Shown here in pieces: positions 1 through 27,425 of a DNA stretch of 64,000 nucleotides (the stretch's first letter is position 1; the number at the start of each line of letters is the position of its first letter). Source of the stretch: Chitinophaga alhagiae (lineage in GTDB: Bacteria > Bacteroidota > Bacteroidia > Chitinophagales > Chitinophagaceae). The stretch is taken from contig NZ_QXMH01000002.1 of the NCBI RefSeq assembly GCF_003568665.1, positions 248,001-312,000 of the forward strand, given 5' to 3'. Under the pieces are notes generated by a model. That model saw only the letters and a list, made by a program, of their open reading frames with translations. It did no database searches and was not told the origin of the DNA. A program made the position numbers and the translations under genes.

Positions 1-729
1 CCGGCTGAAGGTGCTGCCGAACGGCATCAGCATGAAACCGCCGGTAGACAGCAGGATGGTGGTGCAGAAAGCCAGGGAATAGTGTTTGTTCTGCAACGTG
101 TGTTTGAGGTGCGCAAAGGCGTTCTTTTCCACTTTCTGCTGCAGGTGTGCGGTAACCGGCTTCATGTAAACGGCCATTACGATCCCCATGATGGTACCAA
201 AGGCGCCTATCATCCAGAAGGGCGCATGCCAGTGTATCCTGTTGGCCAGTTCCCAGCCCATGGGCACGCCGATGATCTGGCTGAGGGCAAAGGCCATTTG
301 CACAAAACCCATCACCCGGCCTCTTACTTCCGGCCTGAAAAGGTCGGCTATAATGGCCATGCCGATGGCACTGATCACCCCGCCAAACAGGCCGGTGATC
401 ACCCTGGCCGCCAGCAGGAACTCGTAGTTGGGGGCCAGCGCGCAAAGAAACGTGCCGGTGACGAAGCCGGTGTAAAATACCAGCAGCATTTTTTTACGGT
501 CAAACTTATCTGCAAAGCCGGCAGCCAGCACGCCTGAAATGCCCGCGCTGAAAGCGTAGGCAGATACCACCAGCCCAAATTGCCGGGTGGTAATGTGCAG
601 CTTGCCGAGCAAGATCTCGCCTAGCGGGCTTAATACCATAAAGTCCAGCACCACCGTAAACTGCAGCAGGGCAAGCATGGCAATGATGAATACCTGGTAT
701 CTTGAAAAGACCCGTTCTGTTGTTTTCAT
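1..729 (-). CDS. MFS transporter, DHA1-type efflux family (N-terminal part; cut by window start)
   Basis: The minus frame stays open from an ATG at 729 to the window edge, giving the first 243 residues. The protein is inner-membrane: an early hydrophobic helix (FIIAMLALLQFTVVLDFMVL) is followed by several more. The loop GFADKFDRKK matches MFS motif A between helices 2 and 3, and the N-terminal LDFMVLSPLG pattern is typical of drug/sugar-efflux members related to AraJ. Substrate cannot be read from sequence. It lies about 46 bp downstream of an HMA-like gene and a TetR gene on the same strand, which suggests inducible efflux controlled by that regulator. The C-terminal half is outside the window. 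Confidence 0.85.
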   Translation of the reverse strand, partial: MKTTERVFSRYQVFIIAMLALLQFTVVLDFMVLSPLGEILLGKLHITTRQFGLVVSAYAFSAGISGVLAAGFADKFDRKKMLLVFYTGFVTGTFLCALAPNYEFLLAARVITGLFGGVISAIGMAIIADLFRPEVRGRVMGFVQMAFALSQIIGVPMGWELANRIHWHAPFWMIGAFGTIMGIVMAVYMKPVTAHLQQKVEKNAFAHLKHTLQNKHYSLAFCTTILLSTGGFMLMPFGSTFSR

Positions 730-3923: not shown

Positions 3924-4150
3924 CGTTCTTTACATCTTCCCGAAAAAACTATCCCGCACAGGCGGAACGTTATTTCTTCTTCCCGTTCTTTACATCTTCC
4001 CGAAAAAACTATCCCGCACACGCGGAACGTTATTTCTTCTTCCTGTTCTTCACATCTTCCCGGAAAACAATCCCGCACAGGCGGAACGTTATTTCTTCTT
4101 CCTGTTCTTCACACCTCCCCCCAAAACCACCCGCGCACCCGAAACGCTCA
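3924..4150. repeat. 60-bp tandem repeat, about 3.5 copies
   Basis: Copies run 3924-3983, 3984-4043 and 4044-4102 (59 bp), then a degenerate fourth to about 4150. Each unit contains TTCTTTACATCTTCCCG, a short A-run, ATCCCGCACAGGCGGAACG and TTATTTCTTCTTCC. The first two copies are almost identical and later ones diverge progressively, as expected of a slippage-prone minisatellite. Confidence 0.9.
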
Positions 4151-21490: not shown

Positions 21491-22597
21491 ATGATGGCAG
21501 TTGAGTTTACCGGCGCTACATCCCCCCTGATGGAAGAAGCAGCCAGGAAGATTAAGGTTACAAAAACAGCTAAGAGCCGCCTGGCCGAAGTGGATTTTAA
21601 CAACCTGGTATTCGGGAAAAAATATGCAGACCACATGCTGGTGGCTGATTTTGACGGCAAGGAATGGAAAAATGCGGAAATACTCCCGTTCCAGCACCTG
21701 AGCGTGAGCCCTTCCAACGCCGCCTGGCATTATGGCCAGGCCATTTTTGAAGGCATCAAGGCGTATAATGACCAGGAAGGCAACCCCATGATCTTCCGCC
21801 CTTATGACAATTATGCCCGCTTCAACAAAAGCGCGGAAAGGATGGGCATGCCCGATGTGCCGGAATGGCTCTTTATTGGCGGCATGGCCATGCTGATAGA
21901 CCTGGACCGGAAATGGGTGCCTTCCAATGAAGGCTGCTCCCTCTACCTGCGGCCTTTCATGATAGCGGTAGACGAGTTCATTGGCGTGCGCCCGTCAGAT
22001 ACCTACAAGTTCGTGATCATCAATTCCCCTTCCGGGCCTTATTTCAATAAACCCATCCACCTGCTGGTACAGGACAAGTATATCAGGGCCTTCCCCGGCG
22101 GGGTAGGGTACGCCAAGGCCGCGGGCAACTACGGCGGGGCCATGTACCCCACCATGCAGGCGCGCAAGCAGGGGTATGACCAGATACTCTGGGTAGACGG
22201 GCAAGACCACAAATGGCTGCAGGAATGCGGTACCATGAACGTATTTGTGATCATCGGCAACCGCGCCCTCACGCCAGACCTCACCAACGGCACCATCCTG
22301 GCCGGGGTTACCCGTACCAGCGTAATGGCGGTACTGGAGGAAATGGGCTTTGAGGTGGAAGAACGCCCGGTATCTATAGACGAAGTGGTGGCCGCCCATC
22401 AGAACGGCACCCTGCGCGAGGTGTTCGGTACCGGTACCGCTGCCAGCGTGGCCTATGTGGAGCAGCTGGACTATAAAGACCACAAGATATCGCTTGATAC
22501 CACTAAGTACGAAGTAGGCGCTGAAGTGATCAGCCGCCTGGACGCCATCCGCACCGGCAAGGTACCGGATGACAAGGGCTGGAATTACAAAATATAA
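21491..22597 (+). CDS. ilvE: branched-chain amino acid aminotransferase
   Basis: A 368-residue fold-type IV PLP enzyme that interconverts Leu/Ile/Val with their 2-oxo acids using glutamate/2-oxoglutarate. The PLP lysine is Lys209 in GYAKAAGNYGG. WHYGQAIFEGIKAY, LRPFMIAVDEFIGV, LWVDGQDHKWLQECGTMNVF and EVFGTGTAASVAYV are typical of the eukaryote-like (type II) BCAT subgroup, which is longer than E. coli IlvE. Two adjacent ATGs (21491, 21494) can start it. It is a single-gene unit, closed by a strong terminator. Confidence 0.95.
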   Translation: MMAVEFTGATSPLMEEAARKIKVTKTAKSRLAEVDFNNLVFGKKYADHMLVADFDGKEWKNAEILPFQHLSVSPSNAAWHYGQAIFEGIKAYNDQEGNPMIFRPYDNYARFNKSAERMGMPDVPEWLFIGGMAMLIDLDRKWVPSNEGCSLYLRPFMIAVDEFIGVRPSDTYKFVIINSPSGPYFNKPIHLLVQDKYIRAFPGGVGYAKAAGNYGGAMYPTMQARKQGYDQILWVDGQDHKWLQECGTMNVFVIIGNRALTPDLTNGTILAGVTRTSVMAVLEEMGFEVEERPVSIDEVVAAHQNGTLREVFGTGTAASVAYVEQLDYKDHKISLDTTKYEVGAEVISRLDAIRTGKVPDDKGWNYKI

Positions 22598-22615
22598 CCA
22601 ACGGTTCTATAGAGA

Positions 22616-22643
22616 AGCCTCCGGGAAACCGGGGGCTTTTTTT
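22616..22643 (+). terminator. ilvE terminator
   Basis: AGCCTCCGG and CCGGGGGCT pair around a GAAA tetraloop and are followed by seven T. Confidence 0.9.
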
Positions 22644-23045
22644 GTACGCGAAAGGGCAGGTACAGAGGGCTGGTTCTTTTCTTGTTGATTTTCAATCTAT
22701 TATATACCATAGTGTGTTAAAATAAGGGTCGTTTTCTGAAAAAACGGGCCATAAGTAATTGATAACGTGATGATTGAGAAGACAAGGCCCTGTGTAATAT
22801 AGGTCTGATATAGGTAGGAACTAGGTCTGATATAGGTAGGATATAGGTAGGATATAGGTCTAATATAGGTAGGAACTAGGTCTGATATAGGTAGGATATA
22901 GGTAGGATATAGGTCTAATATAGGTAGGAACTAGGTCTAGCTTAGGCCTAACCTAGGTCTTGTTTAGGTCTTGACTAGGTGGGATTGTCTCTGCCGCCTC
23001 TCCGTTGCCGCTTCGGCTTTCTCCCAATACTGTAGCAATATTCAC
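22644..23045. other. long spacer before the translation cluster
   Basis: After the ilvE terminator the DNA is AT-rich and includes an imperfect hairpin near 22726-22751 (GGGTCGTTTT with AAAACGGGCC). Most of the rest is the 11-bp repeat array. No coding frame is credible: the repeat contains stops in the forward frames. Confidence 0.7.
22798..22984. repeat. array of seventeen 11-bp direct repeats (core TAGGT)
   Basis: Seventeen consecutive units of exactly 11 bp, with no insertions. TAGG occupies unit positions 3-6 in all 17, and TAGGT in 16. The main variants are TATAGGTAGGA, TATAGGTCTAA, TATAGGTCTGA and ACTAGGTCTGA. Units 3-7 (22820-22874) are repeated exactly as units 8-12 (22875-22929), giving a 55-bp second-order repeat, while units 13-17 are more divergent. 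There are no spacers, so it is not CRISPR. Function unknown. Confidence 0.97.
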
Positions 23046-23059
23046 TATCTTTGCCGCCC

Positions 23060-23359
23060 ATGACCTTTGATCAGTTCAAAAACAGCCTGCGGCAGCCGGC
23101 GCCTCCCGCGGGGCTGAGCCCGGTGCTGGAAGCCATGTGGTGGGATGGCCGGGGAGACTGGGAGCGCAGCCATAACATAGCCCAGGAAGTGCATTCCGCT
23201 GACGGCTCCTGGGTGCATGCCTACCTGCACCGCAAGGAGGGAGACCCGGGGAACGCCGGTTACTGGTACGCCCGGGCCGGGAAAAGGATGCCTGCCGTGC
23301 CGCTGGAGGCGGAATGGGAGCAGATGGTAACGGTGTTGTTAGAGGAAAATGCCCGGTAA
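23060..23359 (+). CDS. conserved small protein of unknown function
   Basis: A 99-residue cytosolic protein. The block LEAMWWDGRGDWERSHNIAQEVHSADGSWVHAYLHRKEGDPGNAGYWYARAG belongs to a small family found in several phyla, in which a short helical domain carries conserved Trp and His residues; function is not known. TATCTTTG at 23046-23053 is a perfect -7 box only 6 bases before the ATG, so the transcript is probably leaderless. An in-frame TTG at 23051 lies inside that box and is not a plausible start. Confidence 0.8.
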   Translation: MTFDQFKNSLRQPAPPAGLSPVLEAMWWDGRGDWERSHNIAQEVHSADGSWVHAYLHRKEGDPGNAGYWYARAGKRMPAVPLEAEWEQMVTVLLEENAR

Positions 23360-23495: not shown

Positions 23496-23876
23496 ATGCC
23501 TACAATACAACAATTAGTAAGAAAAGGAAGAGAAATTATCCGGGCCAAATCAAAGTCAAGAGCTTTGGATGCATGCCCTCAGCGTCGTGGCGTATGTACC
23601 CGTGTGTACACTACCACCCCTAAGAAGCCGAACTCTGCATTGCGTAAGGTTGCTAAAGTGCGTCTGACCAATAAAGTAGAGGTGATCGCCTATATTCCGG
23701 GTGAAGGTCACAACCTGCAGGAGCACTCCATTGTGCTGATCCGCGGCGGCAGGGTAAAAGATCTGCCGGGTGTTCGTTACCACATTGTACGTGGTTCCCT
23801 GGATACTGCTGGTGTGAAGGACAGGAAGCAGAGCCGTTCCAAGTATGGTACCAAAAAGGAAAAGGCTAAAAAATAA
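23496..23876 (+). CDS. rpsL: 30S ribosomal protein S12
   Basis: A 126-residue decoding-centre protein. The loop [11 protein letters not shown] (41-51) contains Lys43, and [17 protein letters not shown] is the second conserved loop; both are wild-type where streptomycin resistance usually arises. The C-terminus [11 protein letters not shown] is standard. First gene of the str operon fragment, 33 bp before rpsG. Confidence 0.98.
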
Positions 23877-23909: not shown

Positions 23910-24377
23910 ATGAGAAAGCAAGCTGCAAAAAAATTACCCCTGGCGCCCGATCCCAGGTTCCAGGATAAACTGGTAACCCGTTTCGTGAACAACGTCATGG
24001 AACAAGGGAAAAAGAGCATTGCCTATAAAATTTTTTATGACGCTATAGACCGCGTTAGCCAGATAACCAACGAAAATGGTTACGAGATCTGGAAAAAAGC
24101 ATTATCTAACGTAACACCCGCAGTAGAAGTTCGCAGCCGCCGTATTGGTGGCGCCACCTTCCAGATCCCCGCCGAGGTGCGTGCAGACAGGAAAGTGTCC
24201 CTGAGCATCAAATGGCTGGTACGCTACGCTGGTGAAAGGAACGGTAAGAGCATGGCCGAAAAACTGGCTAACGAGATCGTTGCCGCCAGCAAAGGTGAAG
24301 GCGCCGCTTTCAAGAAGAAAGAAGATACCCACCGTATGGCTGAAGCTAACAAAGCTTTCTCCCACTTCAAAATATAG
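23910..24377 (+). CDS. rpsG: 30S ribosomal protein S7
   Basis: A 155-residue protein that nucleates assembly of the 30S head and contacts tRNA at the E site. Conserved blocks: FVNNVMEQGKKSIAYKIFYDAID, VRSRRIGGATFQIPAEVR, LAIKWL-like LSIKWLVRYAGER, and HRMAEANKAFSHF. A strong terminator follows, so the usual co-transcription with fusA is broken here; fusA lies 10 kb away. Confidence 0.98.
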   Translation: MRKQAAKKLPLAPDPRFQDKLVTRFVNNVMEQGKKSIAYKIFYDAIDRVSQITNENGYEIWKKALSNVTPAVEVRSRRIGGATFQIPAEVRADRKVSLSIKWLVRYAGERNGKSMAEKLANEIVAASKGEGAAFKKKEDTHRMAEANKAFSHFKI

Positions 24378-24548: not shown

Positions 24549-27425
24549 CTATTTTACGTTTACCAGTACCTTGATCTTCCCTTCCCCGGCGGCCAGCTCC
24601 TGCAATGCCTTGCCGATCACCTGGCCGGGTCTCACCTTGTCAGGGTCTGCTTTCATGGCATAACCGGGCTTGCTGGAGGTAACCAGCAGGTCTCCCCGTT
24701 TGATAGCGCCGCCTTCGTCACATACCTTGGTGGGAATAACCCCTATCACCCCCATCGGCACCTGGTCGGTAATATCTTCCACACCTTCCTGCTCTGTGAG
24801 CAATACGCCGGGTTTGGTGGCATATACACCGGCTACCAGGCTGGAGTAAGGGGCGGCGGATTTTTCCATGGTGCGGTCCTGGCTGGTGGAGATCACCATC
24901 ACATCTCCGGGCTCGTAGGCGGAGAGCGCGCCGGTCACGTCAAATGCTTCCGCTACGTCTGCCCCGCTGTTCTGCGTGCCGCCGTTGAAGAAACCGCGGC
25001 CGGCCGAATTGATCCTGGCCACGTTCACCGTACCCGGGTTGCCGCTTTTGAACACGGCAATAGAGCCGTTGCTGTGCTGTTCTACCGTCAGCACCGGGTT
25101 GGTATTGCCGGTGTTATAGTTCACCAGCCTGCCCGCGCGGCCCTGGCCGAAGTTGGGCACCCAGGCATAGATGGCGGCGCCCGTACCATCTGCGGTGGTT
25201 TCCACCCCGTCTCCCGTATTAGAGGCATTGGCGGTAATACCGTTGCCGTTGCCGTCTGCAATGGCAATCAGCGCCGGGCCGTTGCCGGCCGGGTTAGATG
25301 CATGGAACAGGCCCGCGTAACCGCCGGTACCGGAAGAGATCCCATAAATGCCCGCTGTACCGAAGTTGGCGAACTGTGAGTTCACTTCTCCTCTTACCGC
25401 CGCTTTGGTGCCGGTTACCCTGTCTACCTTGAAATTGCCGGCTATGCCGTTCCCCACGGTGGTAACAGTGATCACATCGCTGGTGTTGTTCTCATTGAAA
25501 ATATTGAAGCGCCCGGCGCGGCCGGTGGCAAAACTGGGCACCCAGGCATACAGGGCATTACCGCCTCCGTCAATATTGGCTTCCACCGCATTGCCGTCTT
25601 TTGAGGCATTGGCGGTAATAGCGTTGCCGTTCCCATCCTGGATGGCTACCAGTGCGGGGCCGTTGCCGCTGGTGTTGGAGGAATGAAAGAGGCCTGCAAA
25701 ACCGCCTGTGCCGGAGGAGATACCGAATATGCCCGCCGCGCCGAAGTTGCCGAAAATGGTCTTTACTTCAGAACGCACGCCCGCGGCCACGCTGTTGGCA
25801 TTGTCTACCAGGAACGAGGCGGCGTTGCCCTGGGTGTTGTCAGGAATGTTACCATTGCCGTTGGTGGCCACCTCCAGGGTGTTACCCATGGTATTGGTAC
25901 TGTTAAAGTTCTCGAAACGCCCGGCGCGCCCGGTACTGTTATTGAGCCCCACTTGCCCCAGTACGCCAATGGCCGTGCCGCTGCTATTGGTGGCCACAAA
26001 CCCGCGTACGCCATAGCCGCCGCCATCGTTGCGGCCTACCACGGCGCCCGCAATATCGCTGGTGGTACGGCCTACTACCGCTTCGCCGCCGCCGTTGTTA
26101 TCACCTACCACACCGGCTGAAGTTTGTGCGCTGGTAATACCATGCACACCGAAACCGGCGCTGGTAGAGCTGCGTACACCGGCGCCATTGCCGGTGGTGG
26201 TAACGTTCACTACCGTACCGTTGCCTACTGTATTGGCGGTGAGCGCACTATTGTTATTGGCATTGTTAAAAATGCTGATGCTGGCGGGAATACCGTTGTT
26301 GCTGGTAGCCGTAAGGCCGGTGCCGGTGTTGCTGTTGGCATAGACGCCCGTGCCGTTGGCGCTGGCATTGCCATAAACGCCCAGGCCGTTGGGGGTACTG
26401 CCGTATACACCCCAGCCACTGCCGTTTTGCGACCCCCAGACCCCAACGCCCAGGCCGCCGGTACCTGAGTTGATACCGCGTACGCCGGCCGAGAAGCCGC
26501 CGGGAGAGGCGCTGCTTACTATGCCGCGGACAGCGGCAATGCTGCTGGTAGTGGTGTTGTTGACGCCTTCCAGGGACGTACCGTCTCCGTTATTGGTGAT
26601 GGAGAACAGTGTGGCGGCGTTGTTCTCAACGGCATTGTATGGCAGGGTAAAGGCGCCCACTACGGAACCCGGCGCCCATTCCACGCCGTTGAATTTCAGC
26701 ACGTCGTTGGCAGCGGGCGCCGCCGCGGCTACCGGCCGCGTCTGGATCTTTGCTACTACCGGGTCAGGGTAGTTGCCGGTCAGGTCTCCCCCGGCCGGTG
26801 CGTTGGCAATGGAACCAGCGGGCCCGGCGGGACCAACAGGGCCGGCAGGCCCAACAGGGCCAAGGGGGCCGGCGGGCCCAACAGGTCCGGCGGGGCCAGC
26901 AGGGCCACCAGGCCCGGCAGGGCCCACAGGGCCGGGTACGCCGGGAGCGCCAACGGGGCCGGCTGGGCCGGCAGGCCCGGCGGGGCCATCAGGACCGGCA
27001 GGACCAGCGGGGCCGGGTGTGCCGCCGTTAACGGCAAACAGCGCATAAGGCACCGCCATCAACTGGCTGTTGCCCAGTACATTGAAACCGCTGCCGGTAT
27101 TCACTTCCACCCGAACATACTGGTTGGCGTCCGCCCAGGGTACAGTGGCAAAAGTACCGGTAACCGGTGTGCCGCGCCCTATCTGCAGGCTGAAAAGCCC
27201 CAGTTGATTGGTGTTGGTGGTGTGCGTTTCCTGGTATTGCACCGGGCCGTCCGCAGCGCCTCCCAAAATGGAGAACCGCACGGTAACAGGTGCGTTAGAT
27301 AAAATGGTACCATTGCTGTTGCGCGCCACGGCCTGGTAGTTGGTGCCGGTCAGGCCGCTCTGGGCCATTGCCTGCGGCAGGCATGCAACAAGAGAGAAAA
27401 TAATAAGGTTAAATATCTTTTTCAT
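24549..27425 (-). CDS. secreted collagen-repeat surface protein, long paralog
   Basis: A 958-residue secreted protein (signal to about residue 21). Residues 22-132 form a module seen in many Bacteroidota collagen/tail-fibre-like proteins ([46 protein letters not shown]). Residues 136-204 are about 23 uninterrupted Gly-X-Y triplets, mostly GPA/GPV. Residues 270-800 are Gly/Asn-rich short repeats (GVYG, GVRG) suggesting a beta-helix-like fibre, with a duplicated unit of about 130 residues (around 500-635 and 640-765). Residues 800-958 form a C-terminal domain ([30 protein letters not shown]) shared with the second paralog. A trimeric surface fibre is inferred. Last gene of its operon. Confidence 0.85.

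Follow-up and report, generated by a model that had tools for sequence, protein, structure and literature searches.

A dispersed class of 11-bp-phased intergenic repeats in Chitinophaga, with the array ahead of rpsL in Chitinophaga alhagiae as a candidate REP/BIME-like member

An array of short tandem repeats stands ahead of a group of ribosomal protein genes in Chitinophaga alhagiae, and it raises the question of whether such an array belongs to the translation genes beside it or is one copy of something more widespread, and whether its letters or its spacing are what is kept. In the window, by which we mean the whole 64,000-nucleotide stretch that was analysed, the array lies on the plus strand at 22798-22984 and, counted in the frame of the initial annotation, is made of 17 units, all direct, with a step of exactly 11 bp. 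The exact phase described there was borne out, all 17 units carrying TAGG at their positions 3-6; the full TAGGT core is present in 16, unit 14 reading TAGGC. A 55-bp block (units 3-7, plus strand, 22820-22874) is repeated once exactly as units 8-12 (plus strand, 22875-22929), as had been stated, and Tandem Repeats Finder accordingly reported both a period of 11 (12.1 copies matching at 75%, score 154) and one of 55 (2.6 copies matching at 98%, score 277). Divergence of the edge units was found at the 3' edge (units 13-17) and not at the 5' edge. The array has no inverted arm, its best palindrome score being only 6, and it is far beyond chance expectation.

The array occupies the gap between an ilvE-like gene for a class IV aminotransferase (PF01063; 21491-22597, plus strand) and a small ORF followed by rpsL and rpsG, and to the extent checked it contains no coding frame, as had been stated earlier. 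Downstream of ilvE is a hairpin with a T-run resembling an intrinsic terminator (22617-22643, plus strand), followed by a dispersed sequence on the minus strand, here called the B flank (22660-22780). On the other side of the array, TATCTTTG (23046-23053, plus strand), which we take to resemble the Bacteroidota -7 element TAnnTTTG, stands just 5' of the small ORF (23060-23359, plus strand, ATG at 23060, no Pfam match), which precedes the genes for ribosomal proteins S12 (rpsL, 23496-23876, plus strand) and S7 (rpsG, 23910-24377, plus strand). By eye, a similar terminator-like hairpin is found in relatives with or without an array, and a sequence like TATCTTTG precedes the small ORF in relatives too. 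The window also holds other tandem repeats, namely a 60-bp repeat at 3925-4120 (3.3 copies, 93% match) and, at 26815-27016, repeats with periods of 9, 18, and 45 bp in the collagen-like Gly-Pro-Ala stretch of a 958-aa protein (24549-27425, minus strand), which by eye also has an internal duplication.

Arrays of this kind are not confined to the entry of the translation cluster, where the window array had been described. Three successive TAGGT-N6 units were found as nine arrays in the 6.13-Mb genome from which the window comes (G000; G-numbers denote sampled genomes and L-numbers loci), with none for the reversed control pattern; a looser four-unit TAGG pattern gave one further place and its reversed control 1 match. 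An ORF check placed all nine arrays in intergenic DNA; the only overlaps were those of two arrays with short ORFs (121 and 90 aa). Across 98 contiguous units, all of which have TAGGT by definition, an A stands at position 9 in 93, and the remaining positions (6-8 and 10-11) draw mostly on a small set of letters common to the arrays. Several unit types were distinguished within this genome, including TAGGTCTGATA, ATCCTTCGGTG, CACCTTACTCC, and GGGATATGGAT. Loci L111 and L112 have six identical units in the same order together with their flank (366 bp at 87% identity), which shows that arrays have been copied within larger pieces of DNA. The B flank likewise lies beside five other arrays of the genome (L111, L112, L114, L115, and L116), with one more copy at C1:2484156 and copies at three places in G422. 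That further copy belongs to a 247-bp duplication at 95.5% identity between window positions 22534-22780 and C1:2484030-2484275 (L120), which comprises the 3' end of ilvE, the terminator-like hairpin, and the B flank and which lies, by eye, near an rplS-like gene.

TAGGT is the unit of C. alhagiae, and relatives use others; the earlier view that this core is needed was not supported. When the search of relatives proposed in the initial annotation was run, four TAGGT-N6 units were found in 9 of 394 genomes of the family versus 4 for the reversed control, and within the genus the pattern was found in 9 of 60 genomes versus 6, on which grounds TAGGT was rejected as a special motif. The arrays of other genomes in the family have units of their own, and several consist, by eye, of two inverted arms of 11-mers. 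The closest relative, G422, matches the window at 90% identity from the 3' side of the array through rpsL, and its genome contains no run of three TAGGT-N6 units. Its rpsL gap carries a hairpin of ATCCTCCTGTG-like units where C. alhagiae has the TAGGT array, and a hairpin of the same kind is found at the apparent ortholog, judged by eye, of the C. alhagiae array at C1:1186855. The unit pattern of G422 (CCTNNTGTGAT; CCTNNTGTGATCCTNNTGTG) occurred in that genome alone among the 60. A further family, ATANNCCGCNN (hereafter CCG), gave 68 hits in G438 (26 loci by our count), 30 in G421, 26 in G433, and 24 in G405, and 0 in G000 and G422. A Chitinophaga genome has several unit families, and one family is found at many unlinked intergenic places.

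On contig C1 of G438, the CCG arrays are on the minus strand at 14 of 16 loci from 0.46 to 5.40 Mb and on the plus strand at 8 of 10 loci from 5.46 Mb round to 4 kb. This apparent bias, for which fork polarity or gene orientation are possible explanations, was not seen in G433 or G405.

Replacement of units at a single site could be followed in the ilvE-rpsL gap, which was compared in 60 Chitinophaga genomes, leaving 59 after one (G418) from which no gap could be excised. A lag-11 score of at least 22 was reached in 14 of the 59 gaps, with thirteen other lags together giving 9, and 17 of the 59 had either such an 11-bp-phased array or a palindrome with a score of at least 18. Gaps with a lag-11 score of at least 20 were mostly 350-980 bp long, and the others mostly 150-285 bp. 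The units are unrelated between clades, for example CGGGTCTACAT in G396, ATAAGCCGTAT in G412, and AAGGGCACTTC in G400, while CTTACGTTCAT with ACAAGCTTTAT forms a perfect palindrome in G402. In one clade of four genomes both flanks are closely alike and the array is different, with the 11-bp register kept. The array of a record named C. silvisoli (L033) is identical to that of G421, which is on this ground C. silvisoli or very near it. At the same intergenic site, different species have elements with different units.

In order to examine the period apart from any particular unit, we used a lag scan that is free of sequence, in which a hit is any sequence that repeats at a given lag with 23 matches in a 33-bp window; the control lags were 7, 8, 10, 13, 14, 16, 17, 19, and 20, none of them divisible by three. 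In C. alhagiae (464 kb) the scan found 5 hits at lag 11, the window array included, and two of the five are the halves of a single element; G422 had 3 in 160 kb and G106 had 4 in 260 kb, so that these 884 kb yielded 12 hits at lag 11 and 2 for the nine control lags together. The total over six sampled genomes was 13. No lag-11 hit was found in 100 kb of G376, also a Chitinophaga, nor in 100 kb of G342, a member of another genus, and 100 kb of G161 (L180-L184), from yet another genus, had 1 hit at lag 11 and 5 at lag 8; period 11 is without special standing in these two other genera. A refined scan, for which the gene model was improved and the threshold set at 22, covered 1.08 Mb of G000, G422, G106, and G376; it placed 12 lag-11 hits in 108 kb of intergenic DNA and 1 in 968 kb of coding or edge sequence, compared with 5 intergenic and 4 coding or edge hits for the nine control lags combined. 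Within 80 rpsL neighbourhoods of named genomes from several phyla (L031-L110; 483 kb, mostly coding), there was a single lag-11 hit, in Chitinophaga silvisoli, along with 11 hits at lag 7 and 10 at lag 8, which indicates that the enrichment of period 11 is not general. In the intergenic DNA of the sampled Chitinophaga genomes, period 11 is enriched and neighbouring periods are not. The proposal that the 11-bp step matters was upheld to the extent that the step recurs over Chitinophaga loci and species while the letters change.

The 11-bp units of every element keep exact phase; they either all point the same way or form two arms that are inverted about a centre. Among 40 elements picked as array-like or inverted, 32 reach a palindrome score of 12, and the perfectly paired arms of G402 and G400 extend to 42 and 41 bases, respectively. 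Arms of this length, and an 11-bp step that is also the turn of A-form RNA, would suit an element acting as a long transcript hairpin, be it a leader, a terminator, or a stability element, and the initial annotation had listed a leader RNA among its alternatives. By eye, the same change is present in both arms in the comparisons of G354 with G435 and of G436 with G400, which also speaks for such an RNA. We nevertheless regard an RNA element as very improbable. The window array has no hairpin, and no part of the window has an Rfam match at gathering score, four other loci having sub-threshold matches only. In 40 CCG-family loci (20 of 26 in G438, 10 of 11 in G433, and 10 of 13 in G405), arrays between tandem genes have the direction of transcription at 9 loci and the opposite direction at 10; 18 loci lie between divergent genes and 2 between convergent genes, and 1 is inside a called ORF. 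The mismatches between arms do not point clearly to an excess of G-U wobble (45 G-T and 38 A-C), although this is a weak test that did not use the transcription strand.

The arms are partially complementary at their variable positions. At inner variable sites of the 40 loci, 167 of 280 are paired, compared with a permutation mean of 143.6 and with 0 of 2000 permutations reaching this value; pairing was not above permutation at the inner sites of G438 alone (330 of 2000) nor at outer sites (1876 of 2000). For a 26-pair helix, the number of paired cells and the covariation score were above all 500 shuffles, and the number of pairs changed on both sides (125 of 500) and the pair types (293 of 500) were not. 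A bias of arrays toward convergent genes, suggested by 5 of the first 12 arrays, did not recur in 39 further CCG loci and was rejected: the pooled 51, which include nine non-independent ortholog pairs among the CCG loci and rest on heuristic gene calls, agree with the share of bases in each intergenic class (p=0.36).

The CCG family was also used to examine how units evolve. Across 40 of 40 loci, the CCG/CGG and TA columns recur without change from one 11-bp step to the next in either arm, and the columns between them vary; part of the left arm was fixed by the search pattern itself, for which reason the right arm was used, and site classes were defined on G438 alone. Ten ortholog pairs of G433 and G405 were then compared, nine from these loci and one from the rpsL gap; differences numbered 11 of 200 at core positions, 21 of 100 at variable positions, and 176 of 1566 in flanking intergenic DNA, with the core slower than the flank (p=0.010). 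When two pairs with badly aligning flanks were removed, the counts became 10 of 160, 19 of 80, and 107 of 1268; in these eight pairs the variable sites were faster than the flank (p=6e-5), as unit exchange would make them, and the core no longer differed from it (p=0.44). No clear slowing of the core relative to flanking DNA is seen, and constraint on the core is not proven.

These rates bear on the main rival explanation, a neutral dispersed minisatellite in which 11-bp units that have no function are copied and made uniform by slippage and ectopic recombination, with inverted arms arising by replication template switching and insertion sequences merely favouring such sites. Fast variable sites beside a core that is not clearly slow are what such a process would give, as is the free turnover of unit sequence between species; in units directly beyond the array ends, the core is retained no better than the other positions, and the block common to L111 and L112 and the 247-bp duplicate of the ilvE end show copying of the kind that it supposes. 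The initial annotation had held that a core varying as freely as its flanks would make a neutral minisatellite more likely, and since the core does vary across species this explanation gains weight, although what had not been foreseen is a conserved period with changing letters. By itself, neutrality leaves unexplained both the enrichment of period 11 only over many unrelated units and the presence of arrays in the same gap in several clades, and we consider it somewhat unlikely.

Insertion sequences provide a further view of the arrays. A flank common to several of them, GTCTTGTCCTGAWATAGGTTTACACC, is the right end of an element that we take to be of IS3 type from its motifs and from terminal repeats matching at 24 of 30 and 23 of 30 positions in two copies. 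In L287, GTCTTGTCCTGAWATAGGTTTACACC follows the C-terminus of the transposase, and longer relatives of the element exist. A search for this right end gave 25 matches in 8 of 60 genomes, 13 of them in G415 alone, and 22 could be parsed. In 13 of the 22, an array with a score of at least 22 lay downstream of the transposase stop at a distance of at most 420 nt, and the remaining 9 had no array on that side. Arrays are expected in about 5% of intergenic windows, as given by their density in four sampled genomes other than those with most copies of the insertion sequence, and the corresponding P, computed for 13 of 23, is about 2e-11. IS3-type insertion sequences are found at element edges far above chance.

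Whether the arrays travel as part of the insertion sequence, as a passenger or MITE, or are its target was judged from the details of these insertions. In favour of a passenger, all 11 copies of the IS end judged real in C. alhagiae (of 18 pattern matches) adjoin an array, at the same IS end, by eye. Against this, no IS end was seen by eye in 14 of 17 array-bearing rpsL gaps, in G415 two IS subfamilies are inserted at different points of a single array family (one inside the array, by eye), and there are the 9 IS ends that have no array on that side. Furthermore, a MITE would have the terminal inverted repeats of the IS3 element at both ends, and an IS end, where one was seen, lies on one side only. 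Taken together, these observations make it improbable that the arrays are part of the insertion sequence; the arrays seem instead to serve as targets of IS3-type elements. In G421, 4 of 4 insertions are 16-17 bp from the array edge, by eye. No clean target-site duplication was found in two full-length copies (L308 and L313), and in four others the left end was not recognisable in the stretch examined. The IS right end in L270 and L271 has, by eye, a series GGTTTACA...AATCCTG about 32-33 bp apart, near the length of three 11-bp units.

Among known systems, the closest in kind are the REP/BIME sequences of Enterobacteria and Pseudomonas, which are short, often palindromic, intergenic, present in many copies, and organised in genome-specific families. 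REP/BIME sequences bind gyrase, IHF, or DNA polymerase I, and a Y1 transposase is tied to REPs elsewhere. The Chitinophaga arrays share the intergenic position and the many dispersed copies and, with 13 of the 22 parsed IS right ends, an apparent targeting by insertion sequences; they differ in being tandem 11-bp units, sometimes without any palindrome. No Y1 (RAYT-type) transposase (PF01797) was found in C. alhagiae nor in 11 of 13 relatives, and G106 and G406 barely reached the cut-off of 23 bits (with 23.4 and 23.0, respectively); 5 of 14 control genomes were positive in this search. The cyanobacterial heptanucleotide repeats (STRR) are likewise intergenic and dispersed, with a fixed period and several units per genome, and the Chitinophaga arrays differ from them in a period of 11 rather than 7, in inverted arms, and in IS targeting. 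Palindromic REP units are the targets of the IS3-family elements IS1397 and ISKpn1 (PMC1525189), which the IS3-type insertion at Chitinophaga arrays parallels. GTAG- and CGTC-tagged repeats are also dispersed palindromes, the CGTC class coming from Bacteroidetes among other phyla, but they are palindromes of 20-40 bp with a terminal tag, and the text consulted mentions neither Chitinophaga nor "11 bp" (PMC3733652).

A partition site had also been considered, and the parC site of plasmid R1 offers the model: parC is made of 11-bp direct repeats, of which ParR needs at least two (PMC9426499). Repeat length and direct arrangement are shared with the window array; yet parC is a plasmid site with its own ParR, and the Chitinophaga arrays are at many chromosomal sites, nine in C. 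alhagiae rather than one. In addition, the unit is unrelated between close relatives, the arms are often inverted, and the four adjoining ORFs encode an aminotransferase, two ribosomal proteins, and a protein without an assigned family, with no parM or parR among these four. A partition or centromere array like that of R1 would appear exceedingly improbable. As for the bacterial periodicity of about 11 bp across whole genomes, it has been attributed to the turn of negatively supercoiled DNA and described in E. coli as concentrated in intergenic DNA (PMC4132750, PMC516772); it is a bias in nucleotide frequency, whereas the Chitinophaga arrays are discrete runs of near-identical units.

We give about even chances to the reading that the window array is one copy of a REP/BIME-like class of dispersed intergenic sequences with helically phased units, acting at the level of DNA. 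As REP/BIME-like sequences, the elements would act on DNA and not on RNA. Successive units would present the same face of a negatively supercoiled helix with about 11 bp per turn, which would suit a putative protein binding along that face, either a nucleoid or topology protein or the transposase of the insertion sequence. Exchange of units between copies by gene conversion, slippage, or recombination could then substitute one unit type for another throughout the genome without altering the 11-bp step. A more far-reaching suggestion, tentative and on balance unlikely, is that the arrays are a bacterial counterpart of fast-evolving satellite DNA, with phased half-sites and a putative protein that co-evolves with the repeats.

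In the open-access literature we found no published description of an 11-bp repeat class in Chitinophaga, and the geometry, tandem 11-mers at about one turn of negatively supercoiled DNA (PMC4132750), is new for a REP/BIME-like class. Chitinophaga would have a REP-like class of its own, for the most part lacking the transposase by which REPs are moved elsewhere. If the comparison with satellite DNA were true, species would replace the unit throughout the genome while the stacking of a protein along the helix fixes the 11-bp geometry. The geometry outlasts the sequence, so that a reading of phase may be separated from a reading of sequence, and the IS3-type element may serve as a natural reporter of what makes the array sites special.
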